Source: an uncultured Coriobacteriaceae bacterium
GTDB taxonomy: Bacteria > Actinomycetota > Coriobacteriia > Coriobacteriales > Atopobiaceae
Length of the DNA stretch: 64,000 nt
Direction of reading: 5' to 3'
NCBI GenBank assembly: GCA_902795065.1
Contig: CADBJR010000014.1
Span: 1 to 64,000, forward strand
Every line of letters starts with the position of its first letter. Within the stretch, counting starts at the first letter, position 1. The translations under genes and the position numbers were made by a program. The notes beneath the pieces were generated by a model. The model was not told where the DNA came from. It saw nothing but the letters and a program-made list of their open reading frames with translations, and searched no databases. Shown piece after piece: positions 56,601 through 63,457 of this stretch.

Positions 56601-56656
56601 CATGGGGACAGGTTGTTCGTCCCCTTTTCGCACGTAGGGACAGGTTCATCCGTCCC
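56601..56656. repeat. GGGACAGGTT-type repeat
   Basis: GGGGACAGGTTGTTCGTCCC and, after CCTTTTCGCACGTA, GGGACAGGTTCATCCGTCCC: two partial units in direct order between the ABC gene and the phosphatase gene. The first resembles one arm of the 94-bp palindrome at 50062. Confidence 0.75.
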
Positions 56657-58023: not shown

Positions 58024-58110
58024 AGGAACCTGTCCCTCTGTGCCAAAAGGGAACGAACAACCTGTCCCTATGAGCGAAAAGGGAACGAACAACCTGTCCC
58101 CATGTGCCGT
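58024..58110. repeat. Two tandem GGGACAGGTT-type repeats
   Basis: In the complement orientation, AAGGGAACGAACAACCTGTCCC occurs twice in about 60 nt (from 58047 and 58078), the first preceded by AACCTGTCCCTCTGTGCCAA. It lies directly after the GTPase gene, between it and the SnoaL gene. Confidence 0.75.
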
Positions 58111-60086
58111 CAGCGGGAGAAGAAGCTGGGGTCAGCGGGGCGATACGGCCGCTGGCGCGCGGGGTCATCCTTGACGTGCATCATCTCGGCAGCACGATTC
58201 CACCACACGTTGTAACCCGCGCCGTGTGAGCAGAACACCGAGTCGGGCGTGTTGGGCAGGTCCTCGAGGTAGTTGTATGCCGCTTCCTCGATGACGCGAT
58301 CAGCATCGTGGCAGGGCTCGTAGCCTGAGAGCACGCACGAGATGCTCCCCTGCCCGCCGGTGTACGCGGCCACGTCGAGCGCGTAGTCGCCCAGCTCGGA
58401 GGCGGGAAGCTCGCCTTCGATCACCGCCAGCTCCCCGCGCGAATCGAGCGTGTCGAAGCGCGCATGCATGCGCGTGAGGTCGGCAAGCGCGCGGCCCACG
58501 CAGCCGCTCGGAACCTCCAGCGTGAAGCGGTACCAAGGTTCGAGCAGCACGGCGTCGCCCCGCTCCTTCGCCGTCATGAGCCCCTGGCGGATGGCGCGGT
58601 ACGTAGCCTGCCTGAAGTCGCCGCCCTCGGTGTGCTTGAGGTGCGCCTTGCCCGAGACCAGCGTGATGCGCATGTCGGTGATCGGCGCGGCGATGAGCGC
58701 TCCCTTGTGCTCGCGCTCCATGGCGTGCGTGAGGATGAGGCGCTGCCAGTTGAGATCGAGGTCGTCGGTGGAGCAGACGGTTCCGTATTGCATGCCCGCT
58801 CCGCGCGGCAGCGGCTCCAGGAGCAGGTGTGTCTCGGCGTAGTGGCGCAGCGGCTCGTAGTGGCCGTAGCCCATGACGGGCGCCGCGATGGTCTCCTTGT
58901 AGAGGATCGATCCCTGTCCGAAGGCGACATCCGCACCGAGGCGCTGGTGCAGGCGCTCGCGCACGACCTCCAGCTGGATGGCACCCATGAGCATGAGGCG
59001 GATCTCGCCGAGCTGGTCGTCCCATGCCACACCGAGCATCGGATCCTCCTCCGCGAGCTCGCGCAGGACCGAGAAGACCGTGTGCTCGTCGATACTGCCC
59101 GGCTCCACGCGGTACGCGAGGACGGGCGCGAGCAGCGGGCGGGGCTGCGCGGGCTCCGCGCCGAGCACGTCTCCCGGACGAACCTGCGAGAGTCCCGTCA
59201 CCGCGCACACTGTACCAGCTGAAACCTGCGGCGCAAGCTCGAACTTGGCGCCTGTGTAGATGCGGATCTGGTTGACCTTCTCGGGCGGGTCGGCACTGAT
59301 GACGTCCTTGGTACGCAGCGTGCCGCCGCACACCTTGAGCCACGTCACGCGCTCGCCGCGTTCGTGGGTCACCTTGTATACGCGCGCGGCGAACTCGGCT
59401 GGCCACGTGCGCTCCTCTGGCAGCCATGCGAGCAGGTCGAGCAGTCCATCCACACCCGTATCGCGCAGGGCAGACCCAAAGAGCACAGGAAAGACCTTGC
59501 GCTCCCCCACCAGACGGCGAAGGGTCTTATCAAAAAGAACGCCCTGCTCAAGATATTCATCGAGGGCAGACTCGTCGGTTGCCGCCGCTGCCTCATGGAG
59601 CTCGGGCGCCGTGAGGTCCGAGAAATCCGTGCATCCGTCCGAGAGCCGCACGTGCAGCTGGGCAAGCAGCGCGTCTCGATCCGCCCCATCAAGGTCCATC
59701 TTGTTCACAAAGAGCACCGTTGGCACGCCGTAACGCTCAAGAAGGCGCCAGAGCGTGGCGGCATGACCGGTCACGCCGTCGTTGGCACCGATCACCAGCA
59801 CGGCAACATCCAGCACCGCCAGCGTGCGCTCGGCCTCGGCGGAGAAGTCAACGTGACCGGGGGTATCCACCAGTGTAAGCGGCACACCGTTCCACGAGAG
59901 CGCCGCCTGCGCCGAGAAGATCGTGATGCCGCGCGAGCGTTCCTGCTCGTCGGTGTCGAGGTGGGTGTTGCCATGGTCCACGCGGCCGGCAGAGCGGATG
60001 ATGCCGGCATGCAGAAGCATCGCCTCGGCGAGCGTGGTCTTGCCCGCGTCGACGTGCGCCAATATGCCCACAACCGCCTGTTTCAC
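58110..60086 (-). CDS. Tet(M)-like ribosomal-protection-family GTPase
   Basis: GTG 60086 behind GGGAGGAGATTC gives 658 residues. Translational GTPase motifs: AHVDAGKT (residues 9-16), DTPGHVDF and NKMD; RGITIF is the switch region. EF-G domains II to V follow. The layout and length match Tet(M)/Tet(W) ribosomal protection proteins rather than EF-G. The loop sequences differ from known resistance proteins, so it may be a native relative without resistance function. The C-terminal ~25 residues (HVKDDPARQRPYRPADPSFF) are an addition. Confidence 0.85.
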   Translation of the reverse strand: MKQAVVGILAHVDAGKTTLAEAMLLHAGIIRSAGRVDHGNTHLDTDEQERSRGITIFSAQAALSWNGVPLTLVDTPGHVDFSAEAERTLAVLDVAVLVIGANDGVTGHAATLWRLLERYGVPTVLFVNKMDLDGADRDALLAQLHVRLSDGCTDFSDLTAPELHEAAAATDESALDEYLEQGVLFDKTLRRLVGERKVFPVLFGSALRDTGVDGLLDLLAWLPEERTWPAEFAARVYKVTHERGERVTWLKVCGGTLRTKDVISADPPEKVNQIRIYTGAKFELAPQVSAGTVCAVTGLSQVRPGDVLGAEPAQPRPLLAPVLAYRVEPGSIDEHTVFSVLRELAEEDPMLGVAWDDQLGEIRLMLMGAIQLEVVRERLHQRLGADVAFGQGSILYKETIAAPVMGYGHYEPLRHYAETHLLLEPLPRGAGMQYGTVCSTDDLDLNWQRLILTHAMEREHKGALIAAPITDMRITLVSGKAHLKHTEGGDFRQATYRAIRQGLMTAKERGDAVLLEPWYRFTLEVPSGCVGRALADLTRMHARFDTLDSRGELAVIEGELPASELGDYALDVAAYTGGQGSISCVLSGYEPCHDADRVIEEAAYNYLEDLPNTPDSVFCSHGAGYNVWWNRAAEMMHVKDDPARQRPYRPADPSFFSR

Positions 60087-60101
60087 GAATCTCCTCCCAT
60101 T

Positions 60102-60203: not shown

Positions 60204-60230
60204 TTGACAAGGAACCCCCCCCCCTACGCT
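60204..60230 (+). promoter_or_regulatory. Candidate phase-variable promoter with C10 tract
   Basis: TTGACA (60204-60209) is a perfect -35 box and TACGCT (60225-60230) a fair -10 box. The 15-nt spacer contains ten consecutive C. Slippage of the tract to 12 C would give the optimal 17-nt spacing, as in known phase-variable promoters. It lies 43 nt before the ATG of the three-gene cassette. Confidence 0.6.
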
Positions 60231-60272
60231 TTTCGTGGCTGAACTGTCCACAAGCTTGGAAGGATTACACCG

Positions 60273-60449
60273 ATGGACGCATACATGGGAACCCGAGAGG
60301 CTGCGGAGCTCTGGGGCGTCAAGCAGAGCGACGTGAGCAAATGGTGCAGAGAAGGAAAACTCAAGGGCGGCATGGAGGTCTGCGAGCAGGACGCTCCAGG
60401 CAAGCCATGGCGCATCAGGCGCGACGCCGTCCCTCCAACGAATGACTAG
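60273..60449 (+). CDS. Small MerR/excisionase-like HTH protein
   Basis: A 58-residue protein from ATG 60273 with AAGGA before it: YMGTREAAELWGVKQSDVSK then WCREGKLKGGMEVC and PWRIRRDAV. This is the HTH_17/excisionase-type winged helix (T-R-E-A-A-x-x-W-G-V...W-C-R-x-G-K...P-W-R-I). It probably binds DNA and may regulate the cassette it heads. A gene 36 nt downstream follows. Confidence 0.75.
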   Translation: MDAYMGTREAAELWGVKQSDVSKWCREGKLKGGMEVCEQDAPGKPWRIRRDAVPPTND

Positions 60450-60485
60450 CTAGCAGTAATCGTTCAACTGAAAGGAGCATGTCTT

Positions 60486-60707
60486 ATGGCCATGCAAGCT
60501 CCAACCGCCTGTCCCATTTGCGGAACACAGATTTTCATGGGCTGGGGTCCAACCCAATCGTACAAGCAGCCCCTTAGCGCTGGAAAAGCGCTGGTCGGGG
60601 GCATTCTCGCTGGTCCGGTTGGTGCTATCGCAGGCGCAGCCATGGGGAAGAACTTGAGTGTTTGGACCTGCGCACGATGCGGCTATTCCAACACGTACAA
60701 AGGGTAG
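60486..60707 (+). CDS. Zn-ribbon protein with glycine zipper
   Basis: 73 residues. Two Cys pairs (CPICG near residue 9 and CARCGY near residue 62) frame a hydrophobic Gly/Ala stretch, AGKALVGGILAGPVGAIAGAAMG, a possible membrane hairpin. The layout (half zinc ribbon, glycine-zipper helix, half ribbon) is unusual. ATG 60486 follows AAAGGAGCATGTCTT. Function unknown. Confidence 0.75.
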   Translation: MAMQAPTACPICGTQIFMGWGPTQSYKQPLSAGKALVGGILAGPVGAIAGAAMGKNLSVWTCARCGYSNTYKG

Positions 60708-60716
60708 GCGATTGAG

Positions 60717-61985
60717 TTGGCAGATTCCTTCACCATCGCACAGGTTCGATTCATTACTCAGGCTGCGTTCAGCGATACCAAAGGGGTCTCCGATGCAGCT
60801 GCACAATTCGCTCCCATGGACAATTACAAGCAGTACCAGTCCATCTTCAAATCCGTGAAAAAGGGTGACGTCTTCTACCATCATTCTTTGCTTTTCCAGT
60901 CTCTGTGCGATATTGCCGACAGACTGTTGAACATGACAGAAGGCAACAACTCGAAGGATGTCAGGAATACGGGTGATCGCCGGGTGGGTAGGGCCATCAA
61001 CCTTGCAAAGATGGCCTGCAGCGGACTCGCGAAGGCGGGGCAGTATGATTCATATGAAGGATTGATCGCATATGCTTCCAACCAGAGCGTAGCCATTCTC
61101 AGCAGATGGCTCAGCGTTTCCAGCGATGCTCTGATGAAATCGGTGAATAATCTCAACGATACGGTTGTAAAAGCGAATCGCCTGAACCGCGCAGGTGTCG
61201 ACCCCTCGATACTGAAGGCTCAGGTCGAGAATGCGCAGAATATGATGAATTACCATCAAGCAGCACTCAATGCCGCAACATACGATCTGTACTCCTACCT
61301 GGATGGGTTGTTCCGCGCAATTGCAGATAACCTCGGCGACCCATATGCCATTGACGATGAGGTTATGGAGCAGTACTACGCTGTCGTTGACAAAGTAGCA
61401 ACGCTCGACACTGGACAAACGGTGCTTCCGTCCAGAGTTAGCCTAGCAACAGTCAAAAGGACCATCGAGCTCAACCGCTACAGCTCTCCCCGATACGCGC
61501 AGCTCGTTAAAGAGTGGTGGGGCCCGCGTGCCAAGCAGAGGGAGGAGCTGGAAACCGCCCGCTCCGCCAAGAAAAACGAGCTCAAGGGTGTGCAGGATGC
61601 GATTTCATCGCTCAAGAAGCAGCATAATTCGCTGAAAACGGAATGCGATACCGAAACAGCACCCCATCATCAAGCCGCGAAAGCTATCGAAAATGACATT
61701 GCTACGGCGCAAGAAGAATTAGCTGGGCTGGGCTTTTTCAAATTCAGCCGGAAGAGCGAGCTGCGAGAGCAAATAGCTGCCTCTCAGAAAGCACTAAAAA
61801 CGGAGCAGGCGGCTATTGGAGAAATCGAAGGTCGTTTCGAGGACAAAGTCAATGAAATCCAGTCTTCGATACGCGAACAGGAGCACAGCCAAGAGACCAT
61901 CAAAAAAGAAATCGAAATGGTCACCGAGCGGATCGTACACCCTAAGTTCAGCAAGCAATTCCTGGACGAGCATAAGAACGATTAG
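60717..61985 (+). CDS. Uncharacterised coiled-coil protein of the cassette
   Basis: 422 residues from a TTG at 60717, 9 nt after the Zn-ribbon gene. Residues 1-270 are helical without a known domain. Residues ~278-408 are a coiled coil (KKNELKGVQDAISSLKKQHN, ETIKKEIEMVTERI) with a turn at LGFFKFSRKSELREQI. No enzymatic motif is visible. With the HTH and Zn-ribbon proteins it forms a tight three-gene unit behind the C10 promoter. Confidence 0.8.
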   Translation: MADSFTIAQVRFITQAAFSDTKGVSDAAAQFAPMDNYKQYQSIFKSVKKGDVFYHHSLLFQSLCDIADRLLNMTEGNNSKDVRNTGDRRVGRAINLAKMACSGLAKAGQYDSYEGLIAYASNQSVAILSRWLSVSSDALMKSVNNLNDTVVKANRLNRAGVDPSILKAQVENAQNMMNYHQAALNAATYDLYSYLDGLFRAIADNLGDPYAIDDEVMEQYYAVVDKVATLDTGQTVLPSRVSLATVKRTIELNRYSSPRYAQLVKEWWGPRAKQREELETARSAKKNELKGVQDAISSLKKQHNSLKTECDTETAPHHQAAKAIENDIATAQEELAGLGFFKFSRKSELREQIAASQKALKTEQAAIGEIEGRFEDKVNEIQSSIREQEHSQETIKKEIEMVTERIVHPKFSKQFLDEHKND

Positions 61986-62028
61986 CTGCGACAACCGCAG
62001 TTTAGCGCCTAGATGGGGCTACCCCCAT

Positions 62029-63342
62029 CTAGGCTTCCACAAATCCAAGCATGTAAATGGGCAGGTAGTCAACGCGCCCCACCCTCGAGACGTTCGCATC
62101 GCAGAATTCAAGCACTTCATCAAACGTGTAGTTCTCGGTTGCAAGCAGGTTGTTGAGGGCGCTATGGCGTCGATAGTCTTTTCCCGACTTGATCTCGCAG
62201 AGTGCCACTCCCCCTCGCTTGTGCTGTAGCACGAAATCGATTTCACCGATTGATTTGGTGTTATAGTATCGCGGCTCAAAACCGTGTGCCGCGAATTCCT
62301 GCGCTGCCGCGTTCTCGAAGATCGACCCGAAGTTGATGCATGACCGCTTATTGAGAATGTCTAAACCCACATCCCCCACAAGCTGCGATGTGAGTAAGCC
62401 AACATCGTTGGAATAGAGCTTGAGCGACGAAGCATCCTCGTGGAGCCCCAAGGGAAAGAGCGGCTCCGCAACACGCTTTACCGCAAGGGCGACCCCCGCA
62501 TGCGAGAGCCAATCGAATGCCGTCTCAAGATTGGCAAAGCGAAGGTTCTTGCCCAACCGCGTGTACTTGAAACGCTTATTCTGCTCGTTGAGCTGCCCAG
62601 GAATTGCATCGAAAACCATTCTGATCTGGCGGGACTCGGTCTTATCCCCTACATACTTAGCAATGTCGTATGCATAGAGATCATGCACCTGAGACTGAGC
62701 AGCACGCACATTGGGAAGGCTCTTGGTGTCCTCGAAGACCTGAACAGCATGTGGAAGACCACCCACAAGCACATACTTGTAGAACGAATCGATGAGAAGA
62801 TCGTGCAGGTAGCCTGGGACTGGCTCGCGCCGCATAAAGCAATCTCGCACTTGGGCGAGGGCGCTCTTGGGAATGCCTTCGGCCCAACAGAACTCTTCGA
62901 AGTCGAGCGGATACATCGTTATGGTCTGCAAAAAGCCCACAGGCAACGACCGGGGATCGAAAGAATCAAGGCCTAGGCGGGACCCAGAGAAGACGTAATC
63001 GCAATCGGTTCTCTCCACAAGGAACTTAAGCCACGTAAGAGCATCCTCGCACTCTTGAATCTCATCAAGAAAAACTAGGGTACGACCTGGAATAATTTCG
63101 GTTTTCCCAAGCACAGATAAACGCATAAAGAGATCAGCGGAATCGCGTGCGCCAGCAACCGTCTCCACAGCACGGGGATTCTCATAGAAGTTGATCTCGA
63201 CGAATGCGTCGTAGTGCTTTGAGGCCAGCTCCTCAACCAATGTGGTTTTCCCCACTTGGCGAGCTCCGGTAATCAGAAGTCCACGTGAGGCACGGTCTCG
63301 TCTCCAAGAGAGGAGTTCATTGAACGCTTTGCGCTCGAGCAT
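62029..63342 (-). CDS. AAA ATPase with DUF4143 domain
   Basis: I choose ATG 63342 behind GGGAGGTCCG, giving 437 residues. AAA_14 domain with Walker A ITGARQVGKTTLVEEL and Walker B TLVFLDEIQECEDALTWLKFL; then the DUF4143 domain (PHAVQVFEDTKSLPNVRAAQ, FENAAAQEFAAHGFEPRYY, GEIDFVLQHKRGGVALCEIKSG). The end has a PD-(D/E)XK-like D...E-x-K. The family is common in gut bacteria, with unclear role. Confidence 0.9.
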   Translation of the reverse strand: MLERKAFNELLSWRRDRASRGLLITGARQVGKTTLVEELASKHYDAFVEINFYENPRAVETVAGARDSADLFMRLSVLGKTEIIPGRTLVFLDEIQECEDALTWLKFLVERTDCDYVFSGSRLGLDSFDPRSLPVGFLQTITMYPLDFEEFCWAEGIPKSALAQVRDCFMRREPVPGYLHDLLIDSFYKYVLVGGLPHAVQVFEDTKSLPNVRAAQSQVHDLYAYDIAKYVGDKTESRQIRMVFDAIPGQLNEQNKRFKYTRLGKNLRFANLETAFDWLSHAGVALAVKRVAEPLFPLGLHEDASSLKLYSNDVGLLTSQLVGDVGLDILNKRSCINFGSIFENAAAQEFAAHGFEPRYYNTKSIGEIDFVLQHKRGGVALCEIKSGKDYRRHSALNNLLATENYTFDEVLEFCDANVSRVGRVDYLPIYMLGFVEA

Positions 63343-63381
63343 CGGACCTCCCATCATCATCCCTCACCACCAAATAGTATA

Positions 63382-63457
63382 CGCAAAAGTTGCGCTCATA
63401 ATCAGCTAATACTCGCAAAAGTTGTACATTATTAGCCATATCTAAGCGCAAAAGGTG
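63382..63457. repeat. Three spaced copies of CGCAAAAGTTG
   Basis: CGCAAAAGTTG at 63382 and 63414 and CGCAAAAGGTG at 63447 recur every 32-33 bp (about three helical turns). They lie in the divergent region between the AAA/DUF4143 gene and the DUF1292 gene. On the minus strand the first copy abuts a TATACT box. An operator array is likely. Confidence 0.65.

Follow-up and report, generated by a model that had tools for sequence, protein, structure and literature searches.

Introduction

The main known examples of phase variation by slippage within a promoter spacer come from Neisseria and a small number of other bacteria of mucosal surfaces, where slippage acts on the distance between the -35 and -10 elements, whose usual optimum is 17 nt. 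In porA, fetA and opc, a homopolymer located between both elements varies in length, which results in phase variation (PMC2791445). In Bifidobacterium breve, an actinobacterium of the gut, slippage has been found at G10/G11 tracts, in a study where promoter-spacer tracts are mentioned too (PMC9187656). The locus described here also borders on a gene matching PDC-S01, a very common candidate whose role in defence is unvalidated (PMC12988326, PMC13356809). Our search of the open literature for poly-C phase variation in Collinsella retrieved no report, and the papers listed by a wider search contained no mention of Coriobacter.

The locus is found in a stretch of 64,000 nucleotides (the window) from a genome of 2.24 Mb assembled in 53 contigs, which belongs to an order that includes Ellagibacter. 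The initial annotation had placed a TTGACA box, a 15-nt spacer containing ten C and a TACGCT box in front of three co-directional genes, and all of these were located exactly at the described coordinates (Table 1).

Table 1. Features of the C-tract locus in the window.
Feature	Position	Strand	Basis
-35 box TTGACA	60204-60209	+	Sequence; kept in 7/7 recurring promoters
C10 run inside the -35/-10 spacer	60215-60224	+	Sequence; spacer of 15 nt (60210-60224) consists of AGGAA and C10
-10-like hexamer TACGCT, TAnnnT type	60225-60230	+	TAnnnT-type hexamers at spacer 14-16 in 6/7 promoters
Excisionase-like HTH leader protein, 58 aa	60273-60449	+	Pfam HTH_17, E=6e-9, above cut-off
Zn-ribbon/glycine-zipper protein, 73 aa	60486-60707	+	Two CxxC pairs flank a glycine-zipper stretch
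422-aa helical protein, TTG start, C-terminal coiled-coil hairpin (residues ~258-407)	60717-61985	+	ORF, structure prediction
12-bp perfect inverted repeat between convergent genes, without T-run	62007-62034	.	Read from sequence
Convergent AAA_14/DUF4143 ATPase, neighbour, PADLOC candidate PDC-S01	62029-63360	-	PDC-S01, E=3e-161

Results

Features of the locus

The promoter contains the only run of at least eight C in the window, and runs of at least nine C are found at just three places in the entire genome. Two of them, the window promoter and a site on contig C4 (G000:C4:41061), carry an identical TTGACAAGGAA-C10-TA element. A 23-nt block of the window promoter (TTGACAAGGAACCCCCCCCCCTA) recurs without mismatch at another place in the genome, and in a DNA comparison of the window with the C4 region a 31-nt promoter block, identical at 29 of 31 positions, constitutes the sole significant match. 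The genes downstream of the C4 copy are unrelated to those of the window and encode a membrane protein with a SHOCT domain and another protein that matches SHOCT weakly. The third run, a C10 (G000:C47:4600-4609, L012), resides within the loop of a terminator-like hairpin with the stem GGCGCCGCCCGTG, which is followed by a T-run.

The TACGCT hexamer agrees with the consensus at three of six positions, which we have counted against its part in a switch. A generic sigma-70 scan, where a spacer of 16-18 nt was required, returned no promoter at the site in the window, which is what a promoter in a sub-optimal state would be predicted to give.

No known system was matched by the window operon in Pfam, NCBIfam and PADLOC. 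For the 422-aa protein, whose predicted structure has a mean pLDDT of 56 with the coiled-coil hairpin as its only reliable part, searches of 60 related genomes, plasmids and phages found no relatives. The HTH operon is flanked by the ATPase and by a gene encoding an EF-G-like protein (58110-60088, minus strand), which starts near 60088, is oriented divergently from the cassette and resembles ribosomal protection factors; an integrase was not noticed among the ORFs between 54 and 64 kb. The gene neighbouring the cassette on its right-hand side is absent in relatives of the genus. Repeats of the type AACCTGTCCC/GGGACAGGTT are located at positions 56605, 56637, 58027, 58059 and 58091 of the window and elsewhere, partly in tandem with a spacing of 32 nt, and they are also present at C4.

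Recurrence across the order

Across the order, we have scanned 399 genomes with a pattern defined by TTGACA, a gap of 4-6 nt and C8, which did not include a -10 box. The scan returned 14 sites compared to 18 matches for a reversed control pattern, and TTGACA followed by a C-run was thus rejected as a generally enriched class. Half of the 14 sites (in the window, at C4 of its own genome, and in G017, G184, G283, G079 and G296) are followed on the same strand by an ORF that begins no more than about 115 bp downstream, and these sites, with the same architecture ahead of a gene start, are spread over three families. All seven contain a -10-like hexamer at a spacer of 14-16 nt (TACGCT, 15; TAAATT, 15; TACATT, 14; TATCTT, 16; TACTTT, 16; TATTTT, 16; CATTAT, 15), and a homopolymer thus occupies the region between the -35 and -10 elements in the window as in the entire set. 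The run comprises 9-11 C in each case, with tract lengths being taken from one assembly per species, where the length of a homopolymer may be off by one base.

A -10-like hexamer is lacking at six of the other sites, whose positions are inside or directly against genes or at the end of a contig. At the 14th site, which contains C12 and AATAAT at a spacer of 17, the sequence is cut off by the end of the contig. If this site is left out, the association between -10 hexamer and gene start has a probability of 6e-4 in Fisher's exact test, which is based on small numbers and on ORF calls made in this analysis. Since the searched pattern did not contain a -10 box, this association provides a separate check.

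The leader gene

The leader of the operon carries an HTH_17/excisionase domain, with a match to TIGR01764 that is below cut-off and a weak match to the PADLOC model mad1 (E=2e-4). Close matches of this protein were found in four of the 399 genomes, together with one further distant match. In viral contigs, we detected one HTH relative, without a C-run, and no copy of the promoter block. In Ellagibacter isourolithinifaciens DSM 104140 (G283), a promoter of the form TTGACAAGA-C11-GATATCTT precedes an HTH gene that is 57% identical to the window leader, and the distance from TTGACA to ATG amounts to 66 bp, compared to 69 bp in the window, with C11 instead of C10. With a leader this scarce, the presence of the rare promoter at an equivalent position in two of the genomes, Ellagibacter and that of the window, points to homology. 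The cargo following the Ellagibacter leader consists of a small membrane protein and a 572-aa Zn-ribbon/TPR-like protein, neither of which corresponds to the genes of the window. The leader itself (L143, G283:C2:94533-94700) contains an in-frame TGA at a position occupied by Trp in its relatives, reflecting either a broken leader in front of intact cargo or a sequencing error.

At two of the four close leader loci, both from MAGs (L141 and L142), the C-run is absent, which we have also counted against a switch. The leader is followed by a SHOCT protein in L141 and by a coiled-coil membrane protein in L142.

The Zn-ribbon gene and exchanged cargo

The 73-aa protein, which falls narrowly below the cut-off for Pfam C19orf12 (E=3e-6), has relatives in 20 of the 399 genomes. 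Its closest relative (46% identity) is encoded in a third family (G184) behind TTGACAAT-C10, where the gene is followed by a different protein of 375 aa. In G017, the cargo comprises a membrane protein, a 237-aa protein and a Zn-ribbon membrane protein. The promoters of G079 and G296 precede a secreted-looking protein and a lipoprotein of the erythromycin-esterase family, a cargo that is more similar to classical phase-variable surface genes. C-terminal modules of uncharacterised phage proteins show similarity to the Zn-ribbon segment of the window protein and to the SHOCT segments found in sister cassettes.

The three genes of the window do not form a conserved operon, as no relatives of the 422-aa gene were found in the searched genomes, plasmids and phages and as the HTH and Zn-ribbon genes are accompanied by different partners elsewhere. 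The search for a conserved set, which had been proposed at the outset, has instead uncovered modules that recur in different combinations, with the putative promoter, the HTH leader and the Zn-ribbon gene as shared elements.

As a separate observation, a small membrane protein and a protein with an 'NYKV' N-terminal domain constitute a conserved pair in 15 of the 399 genomes (L051, L052, L076-L089), with C- or G-runs upstream of some of the pairs. An extension of C-tract promoters to all NYKV cassettes was given no weight; G230, G199 and G235 are generally rich in C-runs and TTGACA is absent there. Neither the Zn-ribbon nor the NYKV family was found in viral contigs.

The convergent ATPase

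A gene for an AAA_14/DUF4143 ATPase adjoins the cassette in the window, at C4 of the same genome, in G017 and in L142, and all four proteins match PDC-S01. Since G000 and G017 each contain four AAA_14/DUF4143 genes and no more, the adjacency in three out of three cases within the family of the window is unlikely to be a product of chance. An obligate partnership was rejected, as the ATPase is absent beside the cassettes of G184 and Ellagibacter and as 20 of its close relatives are found without such cassettes. ATPase and cassette share a neighbourhood and do not constitute a defined system. Just upstream of the ATPase gene (63382-63457), there are three (A/C)ACTTTTGCG-like direct repeats at a spacing of ~32 nt, and the ATPase genes of C4 and G017 are preceded by different short direct repeats at the same place, which possibly serve in self-regulation.

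Discussion

The architecture of the promoter, its recurrence, its association with gene starts and the shared leader gene are directly observed in the investigated genomes. As their best explanation, we consider it likely that a sigma-70-type promoter with a slippage-prone C-run as spacer drives a small accessory operon, which is switched by gain or loss of C. In the mechanism that we infer, RNA polymerase would make use of both boxes and the C-run would be subject to slippage. With C10, the spacer of 15 nt would be two nucleotides below optimum and the operon thus off or low in most cells. A gain of 1-3 C during replication would extend the spacer to 16-18 nt and increase transcription of the operon, and a loss of C would lower it further. 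As the spacers of all seven promoters are 1-3 nt shorter than 17 nt, a gain of C should strengthen each of them. The same -35/C-run/-10 unit stands before different, exchanged cargo across the order, and the benefit would lie in silencing, in the majority of cells, a cargo that is costly and exclusion- or defence-like. The C-tract promoter is probably a real switch, since the same design precedes different small operons in related bacteria, and the original proposal of such a promoter has gained support from an architecture that includes a -10-like hexamer each time and that is found in three families.

A different interpretation would be a static promoter, whose boxes are used and where the C-run serves as a fixed short spacer for DNA shape or as the site of a regulator (MerR-like or the HTH leader) without any switch. 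It would account for the narrow range of 9-11 C in all gene-proximal cases and for the AGGAA or ATGAA sequence preceding the run in three promoters of the family of the window. However, the spacers of MerR-type promoters are long (19-20 nt), in contrast to the short C-run spacers found here, and in other families the run has different flanking bases. Runs of this length also normally slip, as do the G10/G11 tracts of Bifidobacterium breve (PMC9187656), and we thus regard a static promoter as unlikely.

Two further readings appear highly improbable. In one of them, the promoter would be recognised by an ECF sigma factor, with GGAAC at the start of the run instead of TTGACA as the -35 element. 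This motif is shared by the window and C4 promoters but absent from those of Ellagibacter, G184, G079, G296 and G017, all of which keep TTGACA. In the other, there would be no promoter and TTGACA and the C-run would be neighbours by chance, in line with a raw class that does not exceed its reversed control in frequency and with the lack of a promoter at the present spacing in the generic scan. Against this stand the exact second copy in the genome, the positional match in Ellagibacter and the joint occurrence of the -10 hexamer and the gene start, which together argue that the arrangement is not accidental and that its recurrence before genes exceeds chance.

Returning to the switch and the operon that it would control, the initial annotation had pointed to surface or anti-phage systems. 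A hint in this direction comes from the secreted or lipoprotein-like products encoded behind two of the seven promoters and from the candidate-defence ATPases found next to several cassettes. The convergent ATPase leans the interpretation of the cassette towards defence, with PDC-S01 itself being a candidate only. Exclusion or defence is the function of the cargo that we favour, albeit with low confidence. Doubtful in our view is the wider scenario, where the order would carry exchangeable phase-variable modules, each consisting of a conserved C-tract promoter, sometimes the HTH leader, and unrelated exclusion- or defence-like cargo, often with a PDC-S01 ATPase beside it, and turned on in a minority of cells. 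If the switch is confirmed, the signature TTGACA, 2-5 nt, C8 or more, TAnnnT would pick out genes subject to phase variation in these gut bacteria, with the promoter itself serving as a guide to undescribed accessory operons that are candidates for phage exclusion.

Comparison with known systems

The window operon does not correspond to a known anti-phage system, as its only matches, to mad1 and to the coiled-coil proteins LmuB and JetC, are weak and lack the ATPase parts. Its convergent neighbour is a clear match to PDC-S01, which is encoded on the strand opposite to the cassette and has its own promoter region. With excisionase-like regulators (HTH_17, TIGR01764, Mad1 of MADS), the leader shares the HTH_17 fold and its small size, but it is accompanied by no integrase in the ORF list and by unrelated cargo in each genome. 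The pilus switch of B. breve resembles the locus in its G10/G11 tract and in its occurrence in a gut actinobacterium, whereas its G-tract is located inside a gene and acts via the reading frame. The meningococcal genes opc, porA and fetA belong to another phylum and encode outer-membrane proteins, in contrast to the mostly small intracellular or membrane proteins of the cassettes, whose functions are assigned by resemblance to protein families. In both cases, however, a run of a single base fills the spacer and its length should set promoter strength, a likeness that extends to the poly-C tract also used in opc (PMC2791445).
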